Part shown: positions 1-37,700 of the stretch, one piece after another
Position numbering within the stretch: position 1 is the stretch's first letter
How the letters are laid out: each line of letters starts with the position of its first letter
Source: Endomychus coccineus
Taxonomy: Eukaryota > Arthropoda > Insecta > Coleoptera > Endomychidae
Length of the DNA stretch: 64,000 nt
NCBI GenBank assembly: GCA_958510875.1
Contig: OY294067.1
Location: 62,446,039 to 62,510,038 of the forward strand
Reading direction: 5' to 3'
Notes under the pieces: model-generated
What the model was told of the DNA's origin: nothing
Database searches by the model: none
Seen by the model: the letters and a program-made list of their open reading frames with translations, nothing else
Translations under genes and position numbers: made by a program

Positions 1-679
1 ATATAACCGCGGGGTATCCGTGACTCGCAAGCGAGGTGGAAGCGTGTTGACCGTGAGTCATACGAAACAGTCGTAGAAATTCCAGGAGCAAGGTTAAATC
101 TATTTACATATAGTTACAATATATCTCTTTCACATTAGCGGGGTATCCGGCCTGAGTGTGAGGTTAGGGAGAGTTTCAATGTAAAGCTACATATAACCAC
201 GAGAGCAAATAGTTGAGAGGTTTCAGTCTGTGAATATTCACGAAAAATAAACTACAATCTTAATAAGAATAAAATAATATTAATAAACCTTATCATTATA
301 TATTAACAAGTAGTAATCGCAGTTGAACGGACGGATAAATCATATCTGTTTGAAACACTACGCTAACGTTTTACGATGCGTGCTAGAATATTTATATGAC
401 TTGGATAAGCAATACTTGTTAATATTTACCAGGCTCGGACTGCCCCCGATATACTGGACTACTTCTACGATCAAGAACCAAGATGGCGGCCATAGGGGGG
501 TCGGTGATAAGGAATGGATGTGTGTGATAAGGTGTGAGATAAGGATATGTTGTTTGTAAAGAGTATACAGGGTGCGTACAAAAAGTGTGTCACATGTACA
601 GGGTCACGTGACTATCACGAGGCAGCTGCCATCGAGTATACAGGGTGTGTACAAAAAGTGTGTCACATGTACAGGGGTC

Positions 680-936
680 ATGTGACTATCACATGACAGC
701 TGTCATGGCGGACCTAAGGTCAGATTGCTTTGTAGAGGTGTCGGCACCATATGACAGCTGTCATGACGAACCTAAGGTACAGATTGCTTCGTGGAGGTGT
801 CGCCACCACGTGACAGCTGTCATGGTGGACCTAAGGTACAGATTGCTTCGTAGAGGTGTCACCACCAAGTGACAGCTGTCATGACGAACCTAAGGTACAG
901 ATTGCTTCGTGGAGGTGCGAAGCACCTCTACGAAGC
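680..936 (+). repeat. 59-bp dyad repeats, left TIR
   Basis: About four imperfect copies of a 59-bp unit containing the dyad TGACAGCTGTCA and the phrases CCTAAGGTACAGATTGC and TAGAGGTGTC. The array ends in a hairpin whose arms are GCTTCGTGGAGGTGC and GCACCTCTACGAAGC. Repeated dyads near the termini suggest protein-binding iterons, which is inference. Confidence 0.75.
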
Positions 937-2119
937 ATTCTGTACCTTTGGTTCAAAAGGTATAGACTGATACGTGGAGATGGCGCCACCAGTTCGACTC
1001 GACCGACTCATGCGGCTCGCAAGCGACTTCGATAAATGAAAGGTCGGAGATCATCGGCTACAACGTTTCGTGCGACTTCGCAGACTCGTTCTAGTTTGCG
1101 GGTGTTAATATCGATGAGGACATTATAGCTCAAGATGAAGTGTGTGGCGGTCGACATTCAGAGCTTCCAAATCTCATACCATGGTTCAACTAGGTGTCCG
1201 TGGAGGCTCTGCCATCTTTGAATGAACTAGTGTGACGGCACATGCCACATGTGTTTTTCATCGGCTTAAGCATCAGAGTGAAGGGGTCTACACCGGAAGT
1301 CGTTATTTTATTGCTTATTTTGAATCTACATGATGAGCTGAACAATATTTTCATCGACTCGATGAATTTTATGATTTACATGGGGAAAAATCTAATATCG
1401 GGCATATAAACAGGAAAAACTGTAAATTTTGTTGCAACTATAGCTTCATGGGTATCAAATGAAAGGTCTTGATGTGTAGAATGTGAATTTCCAACATTTT
1501 CGTGAAAAAATGCCATATCGTACATGTAGATGAGGAAAAACCTCTGAATATAGCTTTATGGAGGGTGTCACGTGTGTTACATCGATGAGGTGGTCAACGA
1601 GGTGTTTCTCACGCAGGTCTTCAGTGTGGTGTCATGGCATACCGTAGTCATAGAAACCATAGAGCTACAGAGCACAACCAGTCACAACCATAGAGCTAAA
1701 GGTTATAGAGCTAACCTGAGTCGCAGACTGGAAGAGGTGTCATGGTGTCTGTCATGTGGGTCTTCAACGAGGTGTCTTGGTGTCTACCGTGTGAACTGTC
1801 ATGGAGGATCTTTCATAGCGTGTGTTTCCATATTTTTGATATGAGGAAAATCAAAATGATGCATACAAATTGGGGTGGGGAGAACATCAAGCTATAGCTT
1901 CATGTGTATCAAAATACACAATGATTTTGACGAGTGAGTGGTGTTTTATTGAATTGAAGATCCGGCGACCATCGTTCACGAACGATGATGACGTCACTGC
2001 TCCAAGCCAATGACAGTAACTGATTCAATCCGGCGACCATAGTTTACGAACGATGATGGGTAGATGTGAATAATTATAATGATTGTAATGCATTCATGCA
2101 CATGTTTTATCGCGTGATT

Positions 2120-2346
2120 CAACACGTGCTTCAACATTCAGACACGTGTTTCAGACACGTGCTTCAATATCCAGACACGTGCTTCAACATTCAGACACGT
2201 GTTTCAGACACGTGCTTCAGTATCCAGACACGTGCTTCAAGATTCAGACACGTGTTTCAGACAAGTGCTTCAGTATACAGACACGTGCTTCAACATTCAG
2301 ACACGTGTTTCAGACACGTGCTTCAGTATCCAGACACGTGTTTGAT
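2120..2346 (+). repeat. CACGTG (E-box-like) repeat array, inner left TIR
   Basis: CAGACACGTGCTTCA and CAGACACGTGTTTCA alternate roughly every 17-19 bp, so the palindrome CACGTG recurs more than ten times just upstream of the ATPase gene. The mirror array is at 7862-8020 just downstream of the capsid gene. It may act as an enhancer or origin-like iteron array, or may simply be tandem expansion. Confidence 0.75.
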
Positions 2347-2418
2347 ACTTACTTTTGACAGGAGTGTAGAAGTGTTTAACCGGGTGCTCGAACATACACA
2401 ATATAACATCATCAACTA

Positions 2419-2427
2419 GTATATAAT
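2419..2427 (+). promoter_or_regulatory. TATA-like element upstream of ATPase gene
   Basis: AGTATATAAT lies about 20 bp before the ATPase ATG at the TIR/coding boundary. The same string AGTATATAA precedes the penton-like gene, which supports a shared core promoter. Transcription start is not known. Confidence 0.35.
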
Positions 2428-2444
2428 CAAATGCTTATTAACAT

Positions 2445-3170
2445 ATGTTTCATTATGATTTCGATTCGCCTTCAGGCATGATGAAGATTGTTAAGCAAAA
2501 AGACTCGTTGAATATTATGAATTTAGGGTCAAGCATTGAGAATGTAGAACAATCACAACGTCACAGCTCTTTGCTGCCTAATACTCTACGAACAATAATC
2601 TGTGGTCCGAGTGATTGTGGGAAAACAAATGTAATGCTATCTCTATTGTTAGATGCAAACGGCCTGAAATTTGAGAACGTGTACATATACTCAAAGTCTT
2701 TACACCAACCAAAATACCAGTTACTAAAGGAAACATTGAAGAAAATTGAGGGGCTTGGATATTTCCCTTGTACCGAAAGTGATGAGGTCATAGACCCCAC
2801 AGAAGCGAGGCCTAATTCGATAATGATATTTGATGACGTGATGTTTGAGAAACAGGAGAAAATTCGTGCTTATTTTTCAAGAGGGAGACACAACTCAATT
2901 GATAGTTTCTATCTTTGCCAGTCTTTTGCCAAATGTCCAAAACATGGATTGCGCGACAATGCCAATTGCTTGATTATTTTCAAACAGGATGAACTCAATT
3001 TGAAACATATATTTACCGATCATGTAAGTACCGACATGTCGCTAGAGAAATTCAAAGAAATATGTAGCGCATGTTGGAAAGATAAATATGAATTCCTTAT
3101 GATAAACAAAGACTGTGACATGAACAAAGGACGTTATCGCAAAGGTTTTGATAGTTATATATACATCTAA
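2445..3170 (+). CDS. A32/FtsK-type genome-packaging ATPase
   Basis: 241 aa from the ATG at 2445, the first ATG after the TIR. A P-loop GPSDCGKT sits at residues 54-61 and a Walker B strand IMIFDD at 126-131. Next come YFSRGRH (143-149), with arginines where A32-like ATPases place their arginine finger, and a CQSF segment (158-161) like the sensor region. Size and order match the packaging ATPases of Polintons, adintoviruses and large DNA viruses, which pump DNA into preformed capsids (family knowledge). The frame is fully open and no key residue is missing. It is the first gene of the + strand cluster, 42 bp before the next gene. A 79-aa antisense ORF is a shadow. Confidence 0.85.
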   Translation: MFHYDFDSPSGMMKIVKQKDSLNIMNLGSSIENVEQSQRHSSLLPNTLRTIICGPSDCGKTNVMLSLLLDANGLKFENVYIYSKSLHQPKYQLLKETLKKIEGLGYFPCTESDEVIDPTEARPNSIMIFDDVMFEKQEKIRAYFSRGRHNSIDSFYLCQSFAKCPKHGLRDNANCLIIFKQDELNLKHIFTDHVSTDMSLEKFKEICSACWKDKYEFLMINKDCDMNKGRYRKGFDSYIYI

Positions 3171-3212
3171 CATGCATATATACTTTCATTTGGAATAGAC
3201 AAACCGTTCAGC

Positions 3213-4277
3213 ATGGATGTGGGTGTGAGTAACATGTTAGAAGAAAAGCAACAATTGAAGAGAAAAATTTGGGAGTTAGCAAACGTTGTGAGGAAAAAAT
3301 ATATGGCTGTAAAATTGGGTAAAGCTGAAAATAATGAGATTCTAGATAATATGTTCAGGAATGTATCTAAACCCCTAGAGGAAATTGCGAAAAATGCTGA
3401 AATAATCAAACAAAATTCGTTGGTTAAACCTAAAAGTAGTGTTTCTACAGCAACACAAATGGAGAACATACCAATCCCAAATATTGTAACTGAAGGAGAA
3501 GAATTCGTATATAACCCCCAAGATACTGAGGAGGATGTGTTTATCCCCGAACCTAATATCGATCAGATTCGTGAAGAATTCAGAAAACATAAGAAAGATA
3601 ATGCAGAGGCTACAGAGGAGTTTCTGCAACAATACCCCACATTAGCACGTTATTACTTGGAGGGATTCCTATTGGATGATGATGTCAAGAAATACGATGA
3701 TAGAATGGGCTTGCAATATAATTCAACTTTAGACAAATGGTTCATGGGTAATCAACCTATAGAAATTGATAGTGAGAGTAATATAATTATCAAGGGTACT
3801 CCGTTCAAGGGTACCACAGGACTGTATAATTTAATATTTTACAGAGATGTTCTACCGGATACTTACACTGTAGAAGATGGGAAAAATTATAGTCAAATGA
3901 TGGAAATGACTAGTGCCCATAGACGTAATAACGATCCAACTGATCGAATAAGAAACATTGTAAAATACAAAAATGTACTGAAACCTTTGATTAATTCCAT
4001 GAAAAGACCAAGGTCCAAAACATACACTGGGAGTGCATATATCAAAAATGATATGCTTGAATATAACGAGAAACCTATCGAATATGTTTATTGGGATGAC
4101 GTTAACGAGATTGTGGATAGACTGAGACTTCTTGTTGCATCCTCGTACGCTGGTAACAATAACCATCACAACGAGATAGTCTCTATAATAGAAGAATTGA
4201 TGGAGGCTGGTGTAATTGAACAAAAACCAGGTGTAAGACGAATTCTTCACAGTTATAAAGATGGTTTCAATGGATAA
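3213..4277 (+). CDS. DUF8207-type conserved protein of virus-like elements
   Basis: 354 aa. The N-terminal 75 residues are charged and predicted coiled coil. The middle contains FKGTTGLYNLIF, and the C-terminal block (residues 291-335) begins YVYWDDVNEIVDRLRLL and ends EELMEAGVI. I recognise that block as the hallmark of the DUF8207 family, found in insect and cnidarian virus-like elements; its function is unknown. A virion or scaffold role is inferred only from its place between packaging ATPase and fibre-like gene. The last 17 nt overlap the next gene, suggesting compact viral gene packing. Frame is intact. Confidence 0.7.
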   Translation: MDVGVSNMLEEKQQLKRKIWELANVVRKKYMAVKLGKAENNEILDNMFRNVSKPLEEIAKNAEIIKQNSLVKPKSSVSTATQMENIPIPNIVTEGEEFVYNPQDTEEDVFIPEPNIDQIREEFRKHKKDNAEATEEFLQQYPTLARYYLEGFLLDDDVKKYDDRMGLQYNSTLDKWFMGNQPIEIDSESNIIIKGTPFKGTTGLYNLIFYRDVLPDTYTVEDGKNYSQMMEMTSAHRRNNDPTDRIRNIVKYKNVLKPLINSMKRPRSKTYTGSAYIKNDMLEYNEKPIEYVYWDDVNEIVDRLRLLVASSYAGNNNHHNEIVSIIEELMEAGVIEQKPGVRRILHSYKDGFNG

Positions 4278-4905
4278 GTTTGGCAGAGCCTCCTCTTCCA
4301 TGTGGATATATGATACAAATATATTTAATAATAATTTCAAACAAGTTCACGGACAAGGATTATTCCTAACGGGCGATGGAAGTTATGATATGGAAAATCG
4401 TAGATTGTGCAACGTAAAATCACCGAATGATGATGGAGATGTTGCAAATAAAGTATATGTTGATAAATTAACACACAAACTGAATCTGAGAACGGAAACC
4501 AGCCTCAATGTTAGGGTTGATAATTTGATCAAAGATATCAACAAGGATCTGGATGAACATAAATTAACGAATGAGAAGGTTATTCTCAACATTGATAAAC
4601 ATCTGACGGACATTCAGAATAAATATAACGGAATGGAGGCCTATATAAAATCAGAGTATCAAACAATCAGTGATAGTGTGAGGGAAAACAGAAATGAATT
4701 GAAAGAGATCAATAACACATTTAACAGTGTGAACATGCGTCTGAATGACATTACTAGTAAAGTGGAGGCGTTAGAACGACGGATGACATCTGTGGAGCTT
4801 TCTAAGAAGAGACCCTCATCATCTACAACAACAACAAAGCAGACCTCTGTGAAACGTATAACCCCAAATCCTGTGAATATACCCAAAAAATTAATTCTGC
4901 ACTAG
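4261..4905 (+). CDS. Fibre-like coiled-coil protein
   Basis: 214 aa from ATG 4261, overlapping the previous stop. Residues 43-68 hold an ENRRLCNVKSP...DVANKVYVD motif. This N-x-P-x-x-x-x-D-x-x-x-K-x-Y-V-D pattern is typical of the capsid-anchoring end of phage and viral fibre proteins. Residues 70-185 are heptad-rich coiled coil with evenly spaced I, L and V. The tail 186-214 is basic and Ser/Thr-rich. I infer a trimeric fibre or spike. No globular knob domain is visible after the coiled coil, so the protein may be truncated or may be an internal rod. Confidence 0.6.
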   Translation: MVSMDKFGRASSSMWIYDTNIFNNNFKQVHGQGLFLTGDGSYDMENRRLCNVKSPNDDGDVANKVYVDKLTHKLNLRTETSLNVRVDNLIKDINKDLDEHKLTNEKVILNIDKHLTDIQNKYNGMEAYIKSEYQTISDSVRENRNELKEINNTFNSVNMRLNDITSKVEALERRMTSVELSKKRPSSSTTTTKQTSVKRITPNPVNIPKKLILH

Positions 4906-4922
4906 ATTTCCTCATTGATAAG

Positions 4923-5027
4923 ATGAGTAGAGAACAAGTTATGCATGAGTTTCATAAGCAGAGAAGAAAGAATTTTTACCAGCATCGAACATACATAAAG
5001 GACCTTCAATATAGGTGGAAGGGGTAG
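4923..5027 (+). pseudogene. Truncated integrase remnant (N-terminal part)
   Basis: A 34-aa ORF, MSREQVMHEFHKQRRKNF onward, ending YRWKG-stop. The EFHKQRRKNF and HRTYIK segments resemble the stretch just before the catalytic core in the retroviral-type integrases of Polintons. The W falls where that family keeps a Trp ahead of its first catalytic Asp. A stop follows at once and no DDE core is found in the next 480 bp. Alternative: an unrelated basic micro-protein. The match is by eye, so confidence is moderate. Confidence 0.5.
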
Positions 5028-5211
5028 GAATATGCAATACGACTAGGACGATGAACCAAGAGTCAAGATTGAGATATTTAAAATCTATTTTGAGGTTATA
5101 CTAACATTTTTTGTATTGAGAAAATTAATAAAAAATATTATTTTGAGATCTTTGGTCTTTCTTCTTCCCCTCTTAAAATAACACTGCAATCTTGCATTCT
5201 CATCAGTCTGT

Positions 5212-5471
5212 ATGGAAGCGTACGAGGAAGAAGGTGTTTTCAATACGCTTATAAACAAGCTTCCGTTTGAACTTCATATTCCTGGTTATCAATCCCAGGT
5301 GTAAAATTCGAAGAACGGATGAGAAGAGCAGATCTAGGTATCAATCCACTCGATAAAGTCTGCCGTCAACGCGATATTTCATGTAATATAACACTTATAA
5401 CTGTGGTCAGTTATGTTTGGAATTCCTCTCTAACTCTTCAACTGTGGTCGACTAACATTGCATTTTATTAG
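5212..5471 (+). pseudogene. Broken phospholipase A2-like domain (parvovirus VP1/adintovirus type)
   Basis: Frame 1 from ATG 5212 gives 30 aa including LPFELHIPGYQ, then stops at 5302. A second frame from about 5295 reads FEERMRRADLGINPLDKVC, then RQRDIS, and stays open to 5469. The two blocks are the conserved start and the GINPLD/active-site helix of viral PLA2-like domains. The calcium-binding loop between them has been lost with a frame change, and Arg occupies the place of the catalytic His in the His-Asp pair. Such domains help virions breach endosomal membranes (family knowledge). This copy cannot be functional. Confidence 0.6.
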
Positions 5472-5480
5472 TATATAAAT
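5471..5480 (+). promoter_or_regulatory. TATA-like element upstream of penton-like gene
   Basis: GTATATAAAT, 28 bp before ATG 5508, sharing AGTATATAA with the sequence upstream of the ATPase gene. Confidence 0.35.
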
Positions 5481-5507
5481 AGATTGTTGATAAAGTTTTT
5501 ATCAATC

Positions 5508-6251
5508 ATGTCTCAGACGTTCACTATCACGGGTAAGAGCTCCCGCTTATCTGTAGATTTTCACCCTCCTATAGAACTAGATCCTCATTCATATTATTCC
5601 ATCGCACTTGTTGGTTTGCATACGTACAATAGCATCCCAAACATTGAAGAAGGTTTTAATAAATTCTATTATGAAGATGTGAAGGGTGAGGAAAAAGTAG
5701 TTACTATACCTACGGGGTCCTACGAGCTGACAGACATCGAGAATTTCATACAAAGTACAGTTTGTGGGATAGGAGTGAAGCAAGAAGAACGTGACCGGAA
5801 ATTATCAATAAAATCTAACAACAACACTCTACACACAGAGCTGAAGAGTGATTTTAAAGTGAATTTTATTCCTCAAGATAGTATAAGCGAACTGTTGGGG
5901 TTCAGCAAAAAGAAATTGACATCTCGTGAACTACACGTATCTGATCGCCCTATAAACATAATCAAAGTTCAATCTATTAGAGTGGAGTGTAACTTAACCG
6001 CTGGAGCATATTATAATAATAAGTTAGCTCATACGATATATGAGTTTTCACCTCTTGTACCCCCTGGGTTTTCCATTGATATAGAGCCGAAAAATCTTAT
6101 TTATCTACCGGTCATCAACAAGACATCCTTCGATAACATCACTCTGAATATTTTGGATCAGAATTGGAAACGGGTAAATTTTCGTGGAGAAGAAATTATT
6201 ATACGGTTGGAGTTGAAAAAGTCCGCAAGAGATTATGGCTTCCAACAATAA
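5508..6251 (+). CDS. Penton-like minor capsid protein
   Basis: 247 aa from ATG 5508; the open frame runs further upstream but only through a non-ATG codon. It is a beta-rich protein: FTITGKSSRLSVDF, then ELDPHSYYSIALVGL, IPTGSYEL, ISELLGFS near the middle and a C-terminal half rich in alternating hydrophobic strands. This is the layout of the minor capsid (penton, single jelly-roll) proteins of Polinton-like elements, whose N-terminus often reads as a strand pair followed by an IP-x-G-x-Y turn (family knowledge). Position just upstream of the major capsid gene fits. Open frame; fold assignment is by pattern only. Confidence 0.6.
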   Translation: MSQTFTITGKSSRLSVDFHPPIELDPHSYYSIALVGLHTYNSIPNIEEGFNKFYYEDVKGEEKVVTIPTGSYELTDIENFIQSTVCGIGVKQEERDRKLSIKSNNNTLHTELKSDFKVNFIPQDSISELLGFSKKKLTSRELHVSDRPINIIKVQSIRVECNLTAGAYYNNKLAHTIYEFSPLVPPGFSIDIEPKNLIYLPVINKTSFDNITLNILDQNWKRVNFRGEEIIIRLELKKSARDYGFQQ

Positions 6252-6337
6252 ATAATAATCCAATACTCATCATCATTCATTATATAGAAAGACTTCATCT
6301 GGGAAGGTTGTTGTTGCAGTACACATCACTTGAGAAC

Positions 6338-6517
6338 ATGGGTTTAGATTTCAGAAATAAAAGACATCCCCATAGTGGTCATCAGTCATTATCTACAACG
6401 AGCTCGAAGGAGAAGGTTGCTACTGCAGCATTATCATTGGAGAATATAAATTTTTTGAAGTCCCTTGGTTACAATGTCGGAAAAACTTCAAATATTCAAC
6501 GAGCCAAACTTCATTGA
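6338..6517 (+). CDS. Small protein overlapping the capsid gene start
   Basis: 59 aa from ATG 6338 (MGLDFRNKRH...). Its last 44 nt overlap the start of the major capsid gene in another frame. The C-terminal part SLENINFLKSLGYNV looks like a short conserved helix. The frame is open further upstream, but that part overlaps the penton gene's 3' end and is probably not used. Function unknown; a capsid-associated peptide is a guess from position. Confidence 0.45.
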   Translation: MGLDFRNKRHPHSGHQSLSTTSSKEKVATAALSLENINFLKSLGYNVGKTSNIQRAKLH

Positions 6518-7676
6518 AGACATCATCCGAGAAGAAACTCACACCTACTATCCACACACAACATCTTTTGGCAACAGCGATGAAGTTGAGATATTAATCA
6601 ATCAACAAGACGTGTTGGTAGATTTGGCATCGTCTGCTTTATTCATCGAGGCAGAATTCCAGCCAGAAGCAAGTGGTGATGGTGAATGTAAACTAACGAA
6701 TAATTTCGGAGCGTTTCTCTTCGAATATATCAGTTATGAATTGAATGGGAAAGAGATAGACAAAGTACGTGATCCTGGTATTGTCAGCACCATCAGAGCT
6801 TATCTAACATATTCCAAACATGAATCTATACCTCTAGCTATTTCTGGATGGTCATTTAAGGATGCACTGAGTTCAGTCTACAATAATAAAATCAATTTAT
6901 GGATACCGTTGAATTTTCTACTAGGCCTATTCATTGACTATAACAAAGTTTTGAGTGGAAAACATAAGTTGCGCTTGATAAGGTCTCGAACCGATAACAA
7001 TTGCTATACTAATAGCACAGGCACGAAGAGGGCTAAAATAAATGTGAAGACGATAGCATTGAAAGTGCGACATGTGTTTCCAAGTGATCAAGTTAAATTT
7101 CAAATGTTGGAGAATTTGAGTGCTGAGAAGCCTATTTTGATTCCATTCCGTAGTTGGGATCTGCATGAAAATCCGTTGATGAAGGAGAGCACTCGCGACA
7201 TTTGGGCTGTTAAAACATCAATGAATTTGGAACGCCCCAGATATGTGATTCTAGCTTTCCAAACTGATCGAAAAAATAATCCTGTGAAGCACAGTGCATA
7301 TTTCGATAATATAAACTTGCTAAATGTAAAATTATACTTGAATTCAGAGTGTTATCCCTATGAAGCAATGAAATTGAATTTCACCGACCAGCAATACATG
7401 GAAGCATACCAGATGTACTATGATTTCCAGAAATCATTTTCAAATAAAATAATAAGCGAGCCCATGTTGGATTATATAGCATTCAAGAATAGAGCAATTT
7501 TTGTTATTGATTGTTCAAAACAGAACGATGCTATAAAGTCATCAACAGTTGACGTCAAACTAGAGATGGAAAGTTTCCTGAATTTCCCCAAAAACACCAG
7601 GGCTTATTGCATCATCATTAACGACCGTATAATGGAGTATTCCCCGATTACAGGATCAGTTCGGAGTTTAGTGTGA
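6474..7676 (+). CDS. Major capsid-like protein (double jelly-roll type)
   Basis: 400 aa from ATG 6474 (MSEKLQIF). The N-terminal third has the pattern of Polinton/adintovirus hexon proteins: a Tyr-His-Pro-like entry (YYPHTTSF), a strand EVEILINQQDVLVDLASSALFIEAEF-like region, then FEYISYELNGKEI and a helix RAYLTYSKHE. A second barrel begins around KINVKTIALKVRHVF and includes IPFRSWDL. Residues WIPLNFLLGLF form the inter-barrel hydrophobic stretch. It is shorter than the 500-600 aa usual for Polinton hexons. I infer a capsid shell protein. The frame is intact, and AATAAA follows 72 bp after the stop. Confidence 0.65.
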   Translation: MSEKLQIFNEPNFIEDIIREETHTYYPHTTSFGNSDEVEILINQQDVLVDLASSALFIEAEFQPEASGDGECKLTNNFGAFLFEYISYELNGKEIDKVRDPGIVSTIRAYLTYSKHESIPLAISGWSFKDALSSVYNNKINLWIPLNFLLGLFIDYNKVLSGKHKLRLIRSRTDNNCYTNSTGTKRAKINVKTIALKVRHVFPSDQVKFQMLENLSAEKPILIPFRSWDLHENPLMKESTRDIWAVKTSMNLERPRYVILAFQTDRKNNPVKHSAYFDNINLLNVKLYLNSECYPYEAMKLNFTDQQYMEAYQMYYDFQKSFSNKIISEPMLDYIAFKNRAIFVIDCSKQNDAIKSSTVDVKLEMESFLNFPKNTRAYCIIINDRIMEYSPITGSVRSLV

Positions 7677-7747
7677 AGAGCCAGGTCATGAATCATAATG
7701 TTATTATTTTAATTACAAATGATGTACTATCAAAATGTATTCTTCCC

Positions 7748-7753
7748 AATAAA
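7748..7753 (+). terminator. Candidate poly(A) signal after capsid gene
   Basis: AATAAA 72 bp downstream of the capsid stop and 110 bp before the right TIR; the only good signal between gene and TIR. Confidence 0.4.
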
Positions 7754-7861
7754 TGTTATCATTATTATTTTTGGCATTTTATTTCTCAAACAGGGTGGCA
7801 GTGCTGTAATTATTCAGCGTTCATAGTTGTTCACAGACTGCTAGCAGGTATCCATTATGTC

Positions 7862-8020
7862 ACGTGCTTAACACGTGTCTGAAACACGTGTCTGAATGTT
7901 GAAGCACGTGTCTGGATACTGAAGCACGTGTCTGAAACACGTGTCTGAATGTTGAAGCACGTGTCTGGATATTGAAGCACGTGTCTGAAACACGTGTCTG
8001 CATGTTGAAGCACGTGTTGA
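7862..8020 (-). repeat. CACGTG repeat array, inner right TIR
   Basis: Reverse-complement counterpart of the inner left array, with fewer units (GAAGCACGTGTCTG and GAAACACGTGTCTG alternate). Confidence 0.75.
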
Positions 8021-9198
8021 ATCACGCGATAAAACATGTGCATGAATGCATTACAATCATTATAATTATTCACATCTACCCATCATCGTTCGTAAACTAT
8101 GGTTGCCGGATTGAATCAGTTACTGTCATTGGCTTGGAGCAGTGACGTCATCATCGTTCGTGAACGATGGTCGCCGGATCTTCAATTCAATAAAACACCA
8201 CTCACTCGTCAAAATCATTGTGTATGTTGATACACATGAAGCTATAGCTTGATGTTCTCCCCACCCCAATTTGTATGCATCATATTGATTTTCCTCATAT
8301 CAAAAATATGGAAACACACGCTATGAAAGATCCTCCATGACAGTTCACACGGTAGACACCAAGACACCTCGTTGAAGACCCACATGACAGACACCATGAC
8401 ACCTCTTCCAGTCTGCGACTCAGGTTAGCTCTATAACCTTTAGCTCTATGGTTGTGACTGGTTGTGCTCTGTAGCTCTATGGTTTCTATGACTACGGTAT
8501 GCCATGACACCACACTGAAGACCTGCGTGAGAAACACCTCGTTGACCACCTCATCGATGTAACACACGTGACACCCTCCATAAAGCTATATTCAGAGGTT
8601 TTTCCTCATCTACATGTACGATATGGCATTTTTTCACGAAAATGTTGGAAATTCACATTCTACACATCAAGACCTTTCATTTGATACCCATGAAGCTATA
8701 GTTGCAACAAAATTTACAGTTTTTCCTGTTTATATGCCCGATATTAGATTTTTCCCCATGTAAATCATAAAATTCATCGAGTCGATGAAAATCTTGTTCA
8801 GCTCATCATGTAGATTCAAAATAAGCAATAAAATAACGACTTCCGGTGTAGACCCCTTCACTCTGATGCTTAAGCCGATGAAAAACACATGTGGCATGTG
8901 CCGTCACACTAGTTCATTCAAAGATGGCAGAGCCTCCACGGACACCTAGTTGAACCATGGTATGAGATTTGGAAGCTCTGAATGTCGACCGCCACACACT
9001 TCATCTTGAGCTATACTGTCCTCATCGATATTAACACCCGCAAACTAGAACGAGTCTGCGAAGTCGCACGAAACGTTGTAGCCGATGATCTCCGACCTTT
9101 CATTTATCGAAGTCGCTTGCGAGCCGCATGAGTCGGTCGAGTCGAACTGGTGGCGCCATCTCCACGTATCAGTCTATACCTTTTGAACCAAAGGTACA

Positions 9199-9595
9199 GA
9201 ATGCTTCGTAGAGGTGCTTCGCACCTCCACGAAGCAATCTGTACCTTAGGTTCGTCATGACAGCTGTCACTTGGTGGTGACACCTCTACGAAGCAATCTG
9301 TACCTTAGGTCCACCATGACAGCTGTCACGTGGTGGCGACACCTCCACGAAGCAATCTGTACCTTAGGTTCGTCATGACAGCTGTCATATGGTGGCGACA
9401 CCTCTACAAAGCAATCTGTACCTTAGGTCCACCATGACAGCTGTCATGTGGTTGCGACATCTCTACGAAGCAATCTGTACCTTAGGTTCGCCATGACAGC
9501 TGTCACTTGGTGGCGACACCTCTACGAAGCAATCTGTACCATAGGTCCACCATGACAGCTGTCACGTGGTGGCGACACCTCTACAACGCAATCAT
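9199..9595 (-). repeat. 59-bp dyad repeats and hairpin, right TIR
   Basis: The phrase GCAATCTGTACC recurs about every 59 bp, giving about six units, each with TGACAGCTGTCA. The hairpin matching the left-arm one lies at about 9199-9235. There are more units here than in the left arm. Confidence 0.75.
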
Positions 9596-9905
9596 GACAG
9601 TTGGACCTTATGGTCGCCATGACAGTTGAACCTTATGGTCGCCATGACATTTGGACCTTATGGTCGCCATGACAGTTGGATCTTATGGTCGCCATGACAG
9701 CTGTACCTTATGGTCGCCATGACAGTTGAACCTTATGGTCGCCATGACAGCTGTACCTTATGGTCGCCATGACAGTTGGATCTTATGGTCGCCATGACAG
9801 CTGTACCTTAGGGCCGCCATGACAGTTGGATCTTATGGTCGCCATGACAGCTGTACCTTAGGTCCGCCATGACAGCTGTACCTTAGGTCCGCCATGACAG
9901 CTGTC
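9596..9905 (-). repeat. 25-bp tandem array unique to right TIR
   Basis: About twelve copies of a unit GCCATGACAGTT followed by GAACCTTATGGTC or close variants. The unit looks like a shortened half of the 59-bp dyad unit, because its last copies regain GACAGCTGT and CTTAGGTCC. It is not seen in the left arm. Confidence 0.75.
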
Positions 9906-10623
9906 ATGTGATAGTCACATGACCCCTGTACATGTGACACTTTTTGTACACACCCTGTATACTCGATGGCAGCTGCCTCGTGATAGTCACGTGACCCTGT
10001 ACATGTGACACACTTTTTGTACGCACCCTGTATACAAACAACATATCCTTATCTCACACCTTATCACACACATCCATTCCTTATCACCGACCCCCCTATG
10101 GCCGCCATCTTGGTTCTTGATCGTAGAAGTAGTCCAGTATATCGGGGGCAGTCCGAGCCTGGTAAATATTAACAAGTATTGCTTATCCAAGTCATATAAA
10201 TATTCTAGCACGCATCGTAAAACGTTAGCGTAGTGTTTCAAACAGATATGATTTATCCGTCCGTTCAACTGCGATTACTACTTGTTAATATATAATGATA
10301 AGGTTTATTAATATTATTTTATTCTTATTAAGATTGTAGTTTATTTTTCGTGAATATTCACAGACTGAAACCTCTCAACTATTTGCTCTCGTGGTTATAT
10401 GTAGCTTTACATTGAAACTCTCCCTAACCTCACACTCAGGCCGGATACCCCGCTAATGTGAAATAGATATATTGTAACTACTTATATGTAAATAGATTTA
10501 ACCTTGCTCCTGGAATTTCTACGACTGTTTCGTATGACTCACGGTCAACACGCTTTCACCTCGCTTGCGAGTCACGGATACCCCGCGGTTATATCTACAA
10601 CATTAAAATCACTTGTTCTCAAG

Positions 10624-10795
10624 TCCTCCATAGCTGAGCGGTTAAGGAATCGGCTTTGGATTTCATGTCTCGGGTTCGACTCCCGTGTGTAGAAAAATAT
10701 TTCATTTTAGTAGAAGTGTTCTACATTAAATTGTTTCAAGTCCTCCGCGGTTAACTTTAGAGCGGGTTCGAATCTCGGTGTGTAGAAAACAATCC
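10624..10795 (+). repeat. Two tRNA-like pol III promoter fragments
   Basis: TAGCTGAGCGGTTAAGG fits a pol III A box and GGTTCGACTCCC a B box, about 45 bp apart. A shortened second copy (CCGCGGTTAAC, then GGTTCGAATCTC) follows at 10745-10780. Both end GTGTAGAAAA. The acceptor arms do not pair and the anticodon arm is poor, so these are tRNA-derived SINE or tRNA pseudogene pieces, not functional tRNAs. Confidence 0.45.
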
Positions 10796-11160
10796 AGTAG
10801 AATGTGAGTACACAGATGCCTAGTTCACAGACTTCAGGTTGTCTAGGCTATAGTTAGGGAAGAACCATAGATGACTAGTTTACAGACTTCAGATTGTTCA
10901 GAACCATAGACTACCTACCCCATCGACCACGCATGCGTGATGACCTTGAAGGGGCCGTTATGGGTATTTACATGCAAGCTGAGGCGACACCTAGCGATCA
11001 GAAGGTCACCTAGAGGCGACACCACGAGGCCGATAATACAGGGGTCAGAGACCATATCCCGACCGCCTACCCGCGCATGCGCTAATGTCCCAAGCCGTCT
11101 GCTCAGATCGGAAGTGGCCGGAGGCTAAGCCTCTGGAAAGTCTGCCCCAAGTGCCGGAAT
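10796..11160. other. Stretch without gene: short duplicated segment
   Basis: Contains two imperfect copies of a 65-bp phrase (TAGTTCACAGACTTCAG and TAGTTTACAGACTTCAG) and GC-richer unique sequence. No coding similarity seen. Confidence 0.4.
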
Positions 11161-11170
11161 ACCTACTCAC

Positions 11171-13430
11171 TAGACAGATATTAAGATATTATATGAACTC
11201 GAATCACATTCTTCTGGTAGGCGATCTCCAATGTCCCGAACTAAACGTGACTGTGTCCACCTAAGAAAGCTTACAGAAAAGCGTATTCTATGTTGTTTTT
11301 ATACACTTAGCAAGGTCTTAGTGAAAACATAAACGATGTCCGTTGCCACCTGCAGACAGACAAACCAGACATACTGGCCTTGACTGAGACGCAGGTCAAT
11401 CCACGAACATGACCTATATGCTCTGCTCTGGCTACGAGGTCTACTCTCGTTTCAGATTCAAAGGAGGTATCTGGTCCCGTTTCAGAATATTACAAAATTG
11501 TAGTAGTCGTATTGATACATGATTTCAGCTGACAGAGTTGTTGAAATAATGTTTACCACTAGACAGATATTAAGATTTATATGAACTCGAATCACATTCT
11601 TCTGGTAGGCGATCTCCAATGTCCCGAACTAAACGTGACTGTGTCCACCTAAGACAGCCTACAGAAAAGCATATTCTATGTTGTTTTTATACACTTAGCA
11701 AGGTCTTAGTGAAAACATAAACGATGTCCGTTGCCACCTGCAGACAGACAAACCAGACATACTGGCCTTGACTGAGACGCAGGTCAATCCACCAACATGA
11801 CCTCTTTGCTCTGCTCTGGCTACGAGCTCTTCACTCGTTTCAGATTCAAAGGAGGTATCTGGTCCCGTATCAGAATATTACAAAATTGTAGTAGTCGTAT
11901 TGATACATGATTTCAGCTGACTGAGTTGTTGAAAGAATGTTTACCACTAGACAGATATTAAGATATTATATGAACTCGAATCACATTCTTCTGGTAGGCG
12001 ATCTCCAATGTCCCGAACTAAACGTGACTGTGTCCACCTAAGACAGCCTACAGAAAAGCATATTCTATGTTGTTTTTATACACTTAGCAAGGTCTTAGTG
12101 AAAACATTAACGATGTCCGTTGCCACCTGCACACAGACAAACCAGACATACTGGCCTTGACTGAGACGCAGGTCAATCCACGAACATGACCTATATGCTC
12201 TGCTCTGGCTACGAGCTCTTCACTCGTTTCAGATTCAAAGGAGGTATCTGGTCCCGTATCAGAATATTACAAAATTGTAGTAGTCGTATTGATACATGAT
12301 TTCAGCTGACAGAGTTGTTGAAATAATGTTTACCACTAGACAGATATTAAGATATTATATGAACTCGAATCACATTCTTCTGGTAGGCGATCTCCAATGT
12401 CCCGAACTAAATGTGACTGTGTCCACCAAAGACAGCCTACAGAAAAGCATATTCTATGTTGTTTTTATACACTTAGCAAGGTCTTAGTGAAAACATAAAC
12501 GATGTCCGTTGCCACCTGCAGACAGACAAACCAGACATACTGGCCTTGACTGAGACGCAGGTCAATCCACGAACATGACCTATATGCTCTGCTCTGGCTA
12601 CGAGCTCTACTCTCGTTTCAGATTCAAAGGAGGTATCTGGTCCCGTTTCAGAATATTACAAAATTGTACTAGTCGTATTGATACATGATTTCAGCTGACA
12701 GAGTTGTTGAAATAATGTTTACCACTAGACAGATATTAAGATATTATATGAACTCGAATCACATTCTTCTGGTAGGCGATCTCCAATGTCCCGAACTAAA
12801 CGTGACTGTGTCCACCTAAGACAGCCTACAGAAAAGCATATTCTATGTTGTTTTTATACACTTAGCAAGGTCTTAGTGAAAACATAAACGATGTTCGTTG
12901 CCACCTGCAGACAGACAAACCAGACATACTGGCCTTGACTGAGACGCAGGTCAATCCACGAACATGACCTATATGCTCTGCTCTGGCTACGAGCTCTACT
13001 CTCGTTTCAGATTCAAAGGAGGTATCTGGTCCCATTTCAGAATATTACAAAATTGTAGTAGTCGTATCGATACATGATTTCAGCTGACAGAGTTGTTGAA
13101 AGAATGTTTACCACTAGACAGATATTAAGATATTATATGAACTCGAACCACATTCTTCTGGTAGGCGATCTCCAATGTCCCGAACTAAACGTGACTGTGT
13201 CCACCTAAGACAGCCTACAGAAAAGCATATTCTATGTTGTTTTTATACATTTAGCAAGGTCTTAGTGAAAACATAAACGATGTCCATTGCTACCTGCAGA
13301 TAGACAAACCAGACATTCTGGCCTTGACTGAGACGCAGGTCAATCCACCAACATGACCTATATGCTCTGCTCTGGCTACGAGCTCTACACTCGTTCAGAT
13401 TCAAAGGAGGTATCTGTCTCTATTCCAGAA
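11171..13430 (+). repeat. Six tandem copies of a 389-bp LINE endonuclease fragment
   Basis: The start phrase TAGACAGATATTAAGAT recurs at 11171, 11560, 11948, 12337, 12726 and 13115, a period of 388-389 bp. Each unit translates, in shifting frames, to pieces of a non-LTR retrotransposon apurinic-type endonuclease, including HLQTDKPDILALTETQ and HILLVGDLQCPELN. Units differ by only a few substitutions. The array ends by running into further endonuclease sequence of the same element. Confidence 0.85.
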
Positions 13431-19827: not shown

Positions 19828-21342
19828 TTATTTAATCAAATTAGTATAAATATGACTTAGATTTTGTGTGTCTACCCTATGATTTACAGATTTGGGGTCC
19901 CGTTTTATGTGAATCATCTCCAGGATAGATCTTTTATAATAATTGGTTTCCTTAGTTAAGATATTAACATTTTTGTAATCAAATTGATGGTTATAATCAA
20001 AGCAATGCTTAGCAAGGGCGGTGGAATTTTCTAAGTTGTTATTTCTTGTGCTATATTTATGGCCGTACATTCTTTTTTGTAAATATTGTTTAGAGATTCC
20101 AGTATAGGTTCCATCACAATCTAAACAATTCAATTTATACACTGTGTGGGTTTGTTTATCTTTGGGTATTAACGGTTTTAGATTTGAGAAATATTTCCCA
20201 ACACAGTTAGTCGGTTTATGCGCAACATTTATATCATACTTTTTCAAACATTTTTTGATTTTCTCTGAGGTCTCCGGAATGTAAGGTAGAGTTATAAAAT
20301 TGTCTGTATTACCTTTTATGTTATTTTTATTAGACGAACCATTATAGATTTTGTTTATTCTTTCTTTAATGATAGGATTGAAAAAAGTTTTTGGGTAGCC
20401 ATTCAATTCTAGTGTAGTACGAACAATTTTTAAATTTTTGGGGCGGTCATCTGCGTGGGACAATTTTATCGCGCGATCTGTAAGGCTGTTTATGACACTT
20501 TTTTTATAACAAGCTGGTGCAACGGAATTGAAGTGAAGATAACGTTGAGACCATACTTCTTTAGTAAACCAAGAGGTTTTTATTCTTCCCTCAGCATCAT
20601 GCCTAATGTTCATATCTAGGAAATTTATGTTATTGTTTAATTCTATTTCACAAGTGAATTGAAGTTTACAGTGAAAATTGTTAAATTTATCAATTACATA
20701 TTGAATTTTATCGTTGGGAAAACACATAAGGCAATCGTCTACATACCGTTTAAAGAATACAGGCCGAAAATCTAATGAACTCATAACAGATTCCTCTAGG
20801 CACTCCATAACGAGGTTAGCAATGGTAGCTGAAATAGGAGATCCCATTGCTGTGCCGAATATTTGTCCAAAAAATTGCTCACCATACTGAAAGTATGTGC
20901 ATTCTAAACAAAATTTTACAGCATTTATAAATTCCGATTGATCTAGAGGTGTGTGGTTTTTAATCTCTGCCCAACGTTTTTTGATGCTGTTCAATGCCAA
21001 AACAACAGGTATATTTGTAAATAAAGAAACAACGTCCAAGGAAATCAGTTGATGGTTTACGGGTACGGATTGATTTTTTATAAATTCATTAAAGTGCCAT
21101 GAATCTTTTACATAGAATTCATTTTTTCCTATTATATTATTGATAGATTTTGATAGAAATTTTGATAAATTGTAAGTGGGCGCTCCAATATTACTAACAA
21201 TGGGTCTTAGAGGTATATCATTTTTATGCAGTTTGGGAAGCCCATAGATATAAGGTGCTAGCCCATTATGGCAAATTAATTTATTTTTTAATTCAATAGG
21301 GATTATCTTATTCTTATGCCATTTATTTATCAATTTATTCAT
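19828..21342 (-). CDS. Penelope-like reverse transcriptase/GIY-YIG nuclease, 5' truncated
   Basis: 504 aa, uninterrupted. It carries GLPKLHK near residue 34, RT motif A SLDVVSLFTN (101-110), motif B GTAMGSPISATIAN (163-176), motif C KRYVDD (198-203), and a C-terminal GIY-YIG endonuclease starting YTGISKQYLQKRMYGH at about 413, preceded by a C-x-x-C pair (NCLDCDG). This RT plus C-terminal GIY-YIG order defines canonical PLEs, which nick DNA and reverse-transcribe their RNA. Full-length proteins are longer; the N-terminus is cut at the junction with the inverted copy, so this copy is probably inactive despite its clean frame. Confidence 0.85.
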   Translation of the reverse strand: MNKLINKWHKNKIIPIELKNKLICHNGLAPYIYGLPKLHKNDIPLRPIVSNIGAPTYNLSKFLSKSINNIIGKNEFYVKDSWHFNEFIKNQSVPVNHQLISLDVVSLFTNIPVVLALNSIKKRWAEIKNHTPLDQSEFINAVKFCLECTYFQYGEQFFGQIFGTAMGSPISATIANLVMECLEESVMSSLDFRPVFFKRYVDDCLMCFPNDKIQYVIDKFNNFHCKLQFTCEIELNNNINFLDMNIRHDAEGRIKTSWFTKEVWSQRYLHFNSVAPACYKKSVINSLTDRAIKLSHADDRPKNLKIVRTTLELNGYPKTFFNPIIKERINKIYNGSSNKNNIKGNTDNFITLPYIPETSEKIKKCLKKYDINVAHKPTNCVGKYFSNLKPLIPKDKQTHTVYKLNCLDCDGTYTGISKQYLQKRMYGHKYSTRNNNLENSTALAKHCFDYNHQFDYKNVNILTKETNYYKRSILEMIHIKRDPKSVNHRVDTQNLSHIYTNLIK

Positions 21343-21370
21343 GTTGTTTTGTACTGATAAAGTAGGATGC

Positions 21371-22136
21371 TGATGGAAGAATAAAAACCTCTTGGTTTAC
21401 TAAAGAAGTATGGTCTCAACGTTATCTTCACTTCAATTCCGTTGCACCAGCTTGTTATAAAAAAAGTGTCATAAACAGCCTTACAGATCGCGCGATAAAA
21501 TTGTCCCACGCAGATGACCGCCCCAAAAATTTAAAAATTGTTCGTACTACACTAGAATTGAATGGCTACCCAAAAACTTTTTTCAATCCTATCATTAAAG
21601 AAAGAATAAACAAAATCTATAATGGTTCGTCTAATAAAAATAACATAAAAGGTAATACAGACAATTTTATAACTCTACCTTACATTCCGGAGACCTCAGA
21701 GAAAATCAAAAAATGTTTGAAAAAGTATGATATAAATGTTGCGCATAAACCGACTAACTGTGTTGGGAAATATTTCTCAAATCTAAAACCGTTAATACCC
21801 AAAGATAAACAAACCCACACAGTGTATAAATTGAATTGTTTAGATTGTGATGGAACCTATACTGGAATCTCTAAACAATATTTACAAAAAAGAATGTACG
21901 GCCATAAATATAGCACAAGAAATAACAACTTAGAAAATTCCACCGCCCTTGCTAAGCATTGCTTTGATTATAACCATCAATTTGATTACAAAAATGTTAA
22001 TATCTTAACTAAGGAAACCAATTATTATAAAAGATCTATCCTGGAGATGATTCACATAAAACGGGACCCCAAATCTGTAAATCATAGGGTAGACACACAA
22101 AATCTAAGTCATATTTATACTAATTTGATTAAATAA
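21371..22136 (+). pseudogene. PLE C-terminal fragment (inverted partner)
   Basis: The frame is open from the junction and reads the same protein as the - strand copy from GRIKTSWFTKEVW to the stop. It contains the thumb region and GIY-YIG domain but not the RT palm. The 210 C-terminal residues are identical to the partner, implying formation in the same or a recent event. Confidence 0.8.
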
Positions 22137-34700: not shown

Positions 34701-37700
34701 ACCAAATGCAATGACATATCTTCAATTGTGTTCGTTGTACAGAATGAATATTTACTGAATGTTACATATTTTATGAAATCGAAATATTAGCCTAACGGTT
34801 GAATGATTGAGCATCTGCAATGAGTTGAATTCATTACGAATTCTTCTTGCTACATCTCTTTCCATGAAGGTTCAACTATATTTCTCACACTACATTCGGC
34901 GTCCTCGTCATTTTCAACCAACTTGAAATCCCTGATTTTTTGTGGAGTTAAATATTTGAATTTTGCATCCATTTTTAAAACATTTAGCATGTTTTCTCTT
35001 GTGAGGTAATCAGGATGTGAGAACTTGTAACTTCTCAAGGACATATTTGATGAACTTGGAGTACCATCTTATCGAAAACCGGAATGAATTGAATCTTGAA
35101 AGATAATTTCAAATCGTTCCCATGGTGACGCATTTCATGACGCCCAAGATCTTGCCTTCTATAATTTTTCTGACACAAACTAGAAATATACATTTTTTAG
35201 GACATATTTTTGGGCGCTGACTTATAATATTCGTTTCTCATTTAGTATATGCTCTCTAGGATCCCAGCGTCCTAAAATAGAAATTGGATATTATTTTGAT
35301 CATATTCCAGGAGGCATTTTCGATAACGAGGGGAATGGTAGGAACGACGAGAGGGCTCTTCGGACAGCTATAATATTGGTGAATCAAAATAAACAACAGG
35401 AAGAACAACATCTAGAACCTGCAATAATCAATGTGGCTCCCCGAGATCCGTTCCAAGCTTTATTAAAAACATGTAATCTTTTTGAAACTGGAGCCTTGAC
35501 GATATTTGGTCCAGATAATCAACAGAATTTCGATGCAGTGCAATCCGTTTGTGATTATAAGGACGTGCCAGTTATTCAAAATAGATGGAATTACAGACCT
35601 ATGAGGGATACTATCATATTGAACTTTTATCCACATCCAACTGTACTCTCACAAGCGTACATCGATATCATAAAAAAATGGGAGTGGAAACAGTTCGTTG
35701 TACTTTACGATGATGATGAAAGTCTTCTACGTCTGAGCAATGTAATCAAACTATCACAGGACAATTCCCTCAAGGTTGTTACTAGAAAGTTAGATGAATT
35801 CAATACAGGCATTTACAGGTAATTCAATATATACACTTATAAACTATAGAAGAGTTTACGTTGTTGATACACTATAACACGGTGAATGAGAAAAACTCAC
35901 CCTTATCCACCAAAGTACTGAGGAAATCAATTTAATATATCGAAATGTGCCTGCTTAAATAAGATTTCGAACTACTAGGATATATGAGGGATTACCCTTA
36001 GTTGATAACGATTCCGATTAAAAATTTGAAAATGGCGAATCCAACATAGTCGTCTTTTTGGACCGAAAATGCACCAAAATTGAAAAAAGTGCGATTTACA
36101 GCTGAAATATGAATTTCTCAGAAAAATTATACATATCAAAATCTGAGTAAAATAATTTTCTCAATAGGAAAATCTTATTTTGAACTCCTCTGCTTGATAG
36201 TTTCAACCCCTATTCTTCGAGGGTTGCTTTGCCAAAAATATATAATAAGAAACCTTTTTTTTTGACAATCATTAAATTTCTCCCAAAGTTTGCAATTTAA
36301 CAGCAAACGCTCTCACAAAACCTTATTGGAATAGAAAGAGGGACTCAATATTATGTTCAATGTTCTCTTTTGTTGAAGAACAATTTAAAATAAACGACAC
36401 ACTTAATAAATACTAATCTTTTCTGTAGAGTACCTGTCACCTGTTCAAAGATATTCCGATAGTTCATAGTATTTTTAGCTACGTTGACTGGACTGTATGT
36501 GATGTTATGGATTCACATAATGTGGAAGCCAACTTCATCAAATATCTTACATTATAATATGGTTTATGTGATACATTGCAGCAACTGATAATGGGGCTTT
36601 CCATTTCATGCTAATCGAATATTGCCGTAACGCGTAATCGAACTAATTAAATCCATTAAGGCTTCCCTAACTTCACCAAATTTGTGTAGGTATAGTTTAT
36701 TTTCCGGCTCTCTGAGACGTTGAGGTTCAATCAGTTGTTATCAAAAAGATTTTATCTTATGATTATACATTGTATTACCTAGTAATGATGCTTTTGACAT
36801 TTTGTTGTTATGATTATCGAATTTGAATGTGTTTCATTGCAAATTTGCTGAAAATTTAAATTAACCAGGTAGGTTGACGCATAACTAACTGAAAATTTTT
36901 CAATTTGACCTTGCTGTGCTATAACTAGAGATAATTAGGTACATAAACAGAGAACAAATCCGACCCTGATATAAATAAGAACCAGGAGATGGTAATGGAT
37001 TCACCAACAAAGAATATTGGTTGAGCATTCGTTCAACATCCGGTTTGACTGAGGTGTATGTCAAACAGGAAAGGTGCCTCATTCGACTATGCCTGGCAAA
37101 ATTTTTACATGGATGTAGGAGGATATCAGAAGAGGTTATACAGAAACTAAAATTCAACCAGACTACCATCTTGGCACTGAACTGTTTTGTTTTTGATTAA
37201 ATTCAGAATGATTTGAGCCAGCAATGGAGCACACAACACCAAATCTAAAGTGAATTATAGTTCATTGGGATCTAGGATGCAAGCAATCTACAGGAAACGG
37301 AGTGGCAAAGATGGGAATCAGCAATCATATACAAAGCCTGCGCTAGCGTTTTATGCGAACTCAAAGGTATAGTTTAGGAGTGAATAATGGGATAATGCCA
37401 AATGCCATGAACCTCACGATAGGTAAGAGCATACCAAACTCAGAATACCAACAAAATATCAACTGCTATAGCTGGCTCGAGAGTCAAATCGATGAAACCA
37501 CAACTTAATTCAGCAAAAAGAATTCTAAATTACCATCTGAAGAATTTGCATACTCTGATACGAAACTGTCAGAAGGCATTACCCGAACATACTGGACCTG
37601 ATCAAAGGATATCGTTATTTCCTGGTTGAATAATAGTTTCAATGCACAATAATAGTCCATTTTAGATGATTTAATATTACTCTTAAATACCTAATATTTT

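Follow-up and report, generated by a model that had tools for sequence, protein, structure and literature searches.

A 64,000-nucleotide stretch of the beetle Endomychus coccineus (contig OY294067.1 of assembly GCA_958510875.1; hereafter the window, G000:C1:62446039-62510038 in our genome-wide scans of the 906-Mb assembly) contains, at its left end, a Polinton-type element with open capsid genes and no match to any of the three polymerase lineages that we sampled in the same genome. We propose that this element is probably a satellite-like Polinton, which would be copied in trans by the DNA polymerase (PolB) of other elements with matching ends and inserted by the integrase of its siblings. 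The proposal draws on the structure of the insertion, its end-to-end siblings, the terminal tips that it has in common with polymerase-bearing elements, and selection on its genes.

A complete insertion with a capsid module

The insertion measures 11,745 bp; it overhangs the window by 578 bp on the left and ends at window position 11,167, with an inverted repeat that spans -577 (G000:C1:62445461, read in the left-flank locus L009) to 11,167. An earlier note, made from the letters of the window, had placed both terminal inverted repeats (TIRs) within 1..10594; long inverted repeats are indeed present, but the left end lies outside the window, position 1 of which falls inside the left TIR and is not the element end. 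This extension was missed by that note, as were two features described below, the chimeric nature of the TIR and the status of the element as a deletion form of integrase-bearing siblings. The termini read AGTAGG...CCTACT (first bases AGTAGGTATTCC, last bases GGAATACCTACT), left and right TIRs are 97.8-99.3% identical over three main aligned blocks, and a 6-bp target-site duplication (TSD), CACTAG, stands on either side. Beyond the inverted repeat a single 389-bp tandem satellite makes up both flanks, directly oriented on each, and its intact units represent the empty site and read TTTACCACTAGACAGATA. Because of these termini, the CACTAG duplication and the empty site in the satellite units, we regard the element as a complete Polinton-type integration; it has both the 6-bp TSD and the AG-starting TIRs of a Polinton. 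That the TIRs might reach into the 389-bp array was ruled out, as the satellite is not inverted from one flank to the other and the empty site is found in its intact units.

Five assembly-type genes (the frames from 2445, 3213, 4261, 5508 and 6474) are open, as had been claimed, and Pfam agrees with the naming of two of them as a packaging ATPase and a major capsid protein (MCP; Table 1). A structure prediction for the 5508 product, suggested beforehand for this penton-like candidate, gave a model of pLDDT 86.9 whose best Foldseek match in the PDB is the mavirus penton (6g41, E 7.4e-10, TM 0.49), and on this predicted fold the product is a penton protein; an alignment-free fold (pLDDT 33) was discarded. 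The name DUF8207-type for the 3213-4277 product has to be dropped, since no such Pfam match was found at E<=1, and the 4261-4905 product gave only assorted coiled-coil and similar Pfam models, none above cut-off. The small overlapping open reading frame at 6164-6517 has no Pfam match. Those of the 120 best listed relatives of the MCP that carry a name are proteins of beetles and ants, the top ones from species that we take to be beetles; comparison with the PDB by sequence returned chance matches only, and no relatives were found in viral contigs.

Integrase and PLA2 genes had been described as broken, and both persist as remnants. The accompanying claim that no protease-sized gene is present is right for a full frame, but a C-terminal remnant survives (Table 1). 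When window 1-13,000 was searched with pieces of the three sampled polymerases (polA, polB and polC), nothing matched at E<=1, in keeping with the reported absence of a polymerase. Of the genes that define a Polinton, MCP, penton and packaging ATPase are present, an RVE integrase and a cysteine protease persist as remnants, and a protein-primed PolB has no match; because the last is unmatched, we file the element as Polinton-derived and non-autonomous and not as an autonomous Polinton.

Table 1. Features of the element and its insertion site, in window coordinates
Feature	Position	Strand	Basis
Left TIR	1..2343, with a further 578 bp outside the window (outer end G000:C1:62445461)	+	inverted-repeat alignment
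Packaging ATPase (Pox_A32-like), open	2445..3170	+	Pfam Pox_A32, E 6.5e-6
Conserved capsid-module protein, open	3213..4277	+	present in siblings; no DUF8207 Pfam match
Coiled-coil, fibre-like protein, open	4261..4905	+	assorted coiled-coil Pfam models below cut-off
Integrase-frame remnant, residues 1-70 of 344	4809..5021	+	E 2.9e-25; start overlaps fibre-like frame
PLA2-gene remnant, residues 1-37 and 41-76 of 231	5182..5432	+	E 8e-26
Adenain-like protease frame, C-terminal remnant, residues 106-130 of 130	5378..5452	+	E 1.4e-9
Penton (minor capsid) protein, open	5508..6251	+	predicted structure and Foldseek
Double jelly-roll (DJR) MCP, open	6474..7676	+	PF21738, E 3.6e-90
Right TIR, terminal CCTACT	7872..11167	-	inverted-repeat alignment
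Right copy of TSD CACTAG	11168..11173	+	flank comparison with empty site
389-bp host tandem satellite hit by the insertion; same array left of the element	11168..13416

Integrase-bearing siblings and selection on the module

Genome-wide, the best 104 of 4,485 first-look MCP candidates and the best 117 of 7,727 integrase candidates were scored. All 104 MCP matches span the full length at about 99-100% identity, 102 of them free of stops, and the integrase frame is open in 117 of 117 places. Thirty MCP loci were fetched. Eleven, counting the copy in the window, have the window's arrangement ahead of the penton gene; the other 19 part from it upstream of window 5385. All 19 (protease-type) have there an open frame for a protease, 129-130 residues long, which is found in none of the 11. 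Two of the protease-type siblings were read from TIR to TIR (11,902 bp, TSD AATGAA; 10,986 bp, TSD TACTGT), and both carry ATPase, a homologue of the 3213-4277 protein, coiled coil, integrase, PLA2 (PF08398), protease frame, penton and MCP. The integrase is open in one (rve, E 4.2e-15) and interrupted in the other, and neither sibling has a match to the polA, polB or polC pieces at E<=1. That a polymerase had merely been deleted from the window copy, as the earlier note allowed, is accordingly not what these siblings, from one assembly, suggest. Eight sampled integrase loci for which no MCP was listed all have one at the expected place (six open, one shortened, one truncated). The window copy is deleted for integrase, PLA2 and most of the protease, its genes and inner TIR match these integrase-bearing, polymerase-less siblings, and it is a secondary derivative, a further deletion form of them. 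The sibling protease frame (L012:3715-4104, minus strand) has a weak Peptidase_C5 match (E 0.022) and is otherwise named from a motif that we presume to be diagnostic; no ATG precedes its first conserved block.

Among the matches listed, the 104 MCP and the 117 integrase places were compared with those of the polymerases. No neighbour turned up within 10 kb for the polB set (100 typed of 147 matches) or for the PF03175 set (82 typed of 201 matches), nor within 8 kb for the polC set (121 places).

The earlier note had also named neutrality, a ratio of replacement to silent change (dN/dS) near 1, as the outcome that would speak against its reading. In pairwise comparisons of the window with two integrase-type siblings, stops being left out of the counts, two module genes lie well below this value: dN/dS is 0.09 for the ATPase and 0.19-0.20 for the 3213-4277 protein. 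The penton differs from its 19 protease-type copies by 24-28.5 silent and 12-20.5 replacement changes, and the polB N-terminus has a dN/dS of 0.11.

Polymerase-bearing elements of the genome

Three polymerase lineages were sampled, type A (polA), polB and polC; PF03175 has at least 201 matches (76 of 1,486 candidates scored). The type A loci L044, L002 and L045 combine polymerase, integrase, ATPase and PLA2, with 40% (integrase), 32% (ATPase) and 54% (PLA2) identity to the sibling proteins. Two polB elements were delimited, C3:75688689-75706570 (17,882 bp, TSD GACAAC, with a matrix-metalloprotease-like gene) and C1:302428549-302445653 (17,105 bp, TSD TACAAG, TIRs of about 6.25 kb that hold a GNAT-like gene); neither gave a capsid or integrase match in the parts read, which comprise everything except stretches of 2.8 and 3.0 kb within their polB frames.

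The polC lineage accounts for 121 of 121 places scored (of 1,715 candidates), many with frames of 1,250-1,299 residues and many of the lower-scoring copies with a stop inside the matched part; its host elements measure 18.2-18.7 kb. We take polC to be a PolB by eye, from motifs and beetle homologues, a naming weaker than those of polA and polB; neither the polC ends nor these homologues match Pfam PolB. Pieces of an 18.3-kb polC element hold homologues of the 3213-4277 protein (32%), the coiled coil (40%), the PLA2 end (42%) and the penton (49%), together with a protease-like frame. No integrase turned up in the four polC-element pieces that were read, a minor part of each element.

Several frames in and beside the polB elements are of separate interest. 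The matrix-metalloprotease-like gene (L047:3380-4945, minus strand) is open, matches Peptidase_M10 (E 3.3e-31), hemopexin and PG-binding domains, and is likely of host origin. The GNAT-like acetyltransferase frame occurs in each TIR of about 6.25 kb of the major polB element (L052:2959-3384, minus strand, and L053:3318-3743, plus strand; PF00583, E 3.9e-6). The 17.9-kb polB element contains fragments of further polymerases (L046:5026-6308 and L047:512-835), among them polC pieces 82-95% identical, a PF03175 piece and one polymerase fragment named by eye, and a histone H3-like frame, also named by eye, lies just past its right end (L047:6109-6519).

Terminal tips common to both element classes

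A search with the TIRs for polymerase-bearing relatives, proposed in the earlier note, recovered polymerase elements with matching tips. From the same terminal base inward, the outermost 1,025 bp of the window TIR (to about window 448) are 94.7% identical to the TIR of the 17.9-kb polB element, and the inner part matches the integrase-type siblings, which end in another tip. By these alignments the window TIR is chimeric, its outer part being of polB-element type and its inner part of integrase-sibling type, and the element has, as a satellite should, its termini in common with an element that encodes a polymerase.

Each of three tips (I, II and III) is present on polymerase-bearing and on polymerase-less capsid elements, in scans that took the best 40 of 120 candidates for tip I, 40 of 838 for tip II and 40 of 1,037 for tip III. 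Tip I, to which the 17.9-kb polB element belongs, forms 17 pairs, one of them of 23 kb; polB is present in all five of 17.8-18.2 kb, and the capsid gene in the six that were examined (two by listing, four by sampling) of the 11 of 8.8-12.7 kb. An integrase remnant like that of the window recurs in the tip-I loci L048 and L050. The 16 tip-II pairs, among the matches listed, carry polC in seven cases (18.2-18.7 kb, including the 18.3-kb element above), window-type MCP in eight (9.9-11.9 kb), neither in one and both in none, a split for which Fisher's p of 0.0014 is descriptive only. Tip III has typed polB in 14 of 18 pairs, one of which, the 42-kb pair, has MCP too; a fifteenth pair (C73) has a degraded polB match, and two have neither gene. 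The 42-kb pair (G000:C5:38511333-38553680), with both polB and a capsid gene, probably represents nested insertions.

The satellite-like reading and its alternatives

Protein-primed PolB works at DNA ends. Ends held in common across classes whose capsid genes are not closely related are therefore what would be expected of a satellite. In the mechanism that we envisage, PolB would prime on the common tips of a panhandle-like or linear intermediate, the integrase of complete siblings would join the element ends to host DNA, and the element's own capsid proteins might package the element, or its helpers too. We infer the replication in trans and the packaging, the latter as a guess from the open capsid genes. 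The clean 6-bp duplications imply, from what is typical of the family, an RVE-type integrase, which would have to reach the window element, and likewise the polB elements, from another source, most simply the siblings. Of the two readings offered in the earlier note, a helper-mobilised satellite fits best, and we disfavour the other, one locus maintained by selection in the host, since the family is dispersed, with near-identical copies on many chromosomes. A broader model, tentative and on the whole doubtful, is that of a tip-swapping satellite lineage, in which Polintons with capsid genes and integrase that had given up a polymerase of their own would repeatedly exchange just their TIR ends to match different helper polymerases of one genome (tips I and III from polB elements, tip II from polC Polintons); the polymerase-only elements, for their part, might draw on the integrase and capsids of this lineage, and together the two would amount to a split viral genome, mutually complementing and resident in a chromosome.

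A number of observations weigh against the satellite-like reading, beginning with the fact that the case is known from genome sequence alone. Within the module, the fibre-like coiled-coil frame is near neutral (dN/dS 0.5-0.8), and pairwise values from two siblings assign nothing to the window's own branch; a polymorphism test of the MCP (13 variable columns, 10 silent) was set aside because picking loci by protein score introduces bias. Several tip-I capsid copies are decaying: the MCP frame of L048 is broken, the ATPase of L050 is interrupted, and L049 has no other module gene in the part read. This last is an 8.8-kb tip-I element (G000:C1:257650002-257658808) whose 4.0 kb read consist of TIR and an MCP match minus the first 13 residues. 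For tip III, the clear capsid cases come down to a single 12,984-bp pair, which has MCP and no polB. Tip II shares little with tips I and III past AGTAG; this dissimilarity, together with the presence of polB at tips I and III and of polC at tip II, puts in question which feature PolB would see. The tip-II match moreover rests on 200 bp, and a scan 1.2 kb further inward (best 40 of 2,216) returned none of the tip-II polC pairs, so that the sharing may be limited to the tip. One MCP copy lies 10.9 kb from polB, inside the 42-kb tip-III pair, and in three cases an integrase and a polC place are 9.1, 18.2 and 18.7 kb apart. Finally, since the scored places are the best 104 of 4,485 for MCP, 117 of 7,727 for integrase and 121 of 1,715 for polC, an element with these same capsid genes and a polymerase could exist elsewhere in the genome.

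The alternative that survives best, although we consider it unlikely, is an ordinary internal-deletion derivative of a parent, still present or recently lost, that had these capsid genes together with a polymerase; the derivative would have been amplified as a non-autonomous transposon with the capsid genes as passengers. Non-autonomous elements with helper ends are common, the window copy itself has undergone secondary loss of integrase, PLA2 and protease, and the MCP, integrase and polC searches cover the best-scoring part of the candidates. Against such a parent, no copy with these capsid genes and a polymerase is found among the matches listed, and the capsid-module proteins of the sampled polymerase-bearing tip-II element are distant, their 32-49% identity ruling this element out as the direct parent. 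Two module genes, in addition, have dN/dS of 0.09-0.20, which is low for passengers.

We regard as improbable a reciprocal split genome, in which the polymerase-only class (tips I and III) and the polymerase-less capsid class, with tips that match, would depend on each other as parts of a single virus-like system, as in bidnaviruses. The two delimited polB elements, with polB, accessory genes, perfect 6-bp TSDs and neither integrase nor capsid gene in the parts read, are what it predicts; about 2.8 and 3.0 kb inside their polB frames lie, however, outside those parts, the sampled tip-I capsid elements are without an intact integrase, and fuller Polintons in the genome (type A; polC-bearing tip II) could help both classes. 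A simple two-part genome was likewise not adopted as our principal reading, being weakened by the 18.3-kb tip-II element with polC and capsid-module homologues. Host domestication of the capsid genes at the window locus would account for five open frames, two of them with low dN/dS, but is very improbable given an insertion in tandem satellite, TIRs that are still 97.8-99.3% alike and many near-identical copies elsewhere.

Relation to known systems

Like Polintons/Mavericks (polintoviruses), the window element has AG...CT termini, long TIRs, a 6-bp TSD, ATPase, DJR MCP and penton, to which the siblings add RVE integrase, PLA2 and an adenain-like protease frame; unlike them, neither it nor the two end-to-end siblings has a PolB match. 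Passages of PMC4028283 list polymerase and integrase among the conserved Polinton genes beside the capsid module, and report that among 72 Polintons nine without MCP were also without protease and ATPase, which is the opposite loss. We found no account in the open-access literature of Polintons that are without a polymerase or are called non-autonomous; print sources may differ.

Mavirus, a virophage that relies on a giant virus, provides the closest match to the window penton fold, likewise has its own MCP, penton and ATPase, and would resemble the window element in lifestyle as a capsid-bearing parasite dependent on another element, although the helpers proposed here are other Polintons of the same genome. 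Mavirus has its own pPolB according to passages of PMC11071308, which also describe a vOTU-PolB architecture. Bidnaviruses, as portrayed in part of PMC4061559, have two DNA segments with conserved Polinton-type termini, one of which encodes a Polinton-type PolB. The matching termini on polymerase-bearing and other DNA are a likeness; bidnaviruses differ in being exogenous single-stranded DNA viruses with a parvovirus-type capsid, whereas DJR capsid genes in chromosomal insertions are found here. Non-autonomous DNA transposons similarly have ends in common with enzyme-encoding elements, but the window family keeps its capsid module, two genes of which have a low dN/dS, and its tips have seemingly been exchanged between lineages. 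If the satellite-like reading is correct, a large family with open capsid genes and integrase, without polymerase and with ends matching several polymerase elements would constitute a satellite virus wholly inside an animal genome, and would offer a natural setting for the origin of a bipartite DNA virus, a question that bidnaviruses pose; natural tip swaps also make PolB-TIR specificity testable.

Other features of the window

No tRNA genes were found in the window, and Rfam gave no matches in window 1-30,000. Outside the element, reverse-transcriptase-like frames in two opposed copies, named by eye, occupy 19828-22136 and are probably a retroelement, and a receptor-like frame at 35376-35822, also named by eye, may be an exon of a host gene for an ionotropic receptor.

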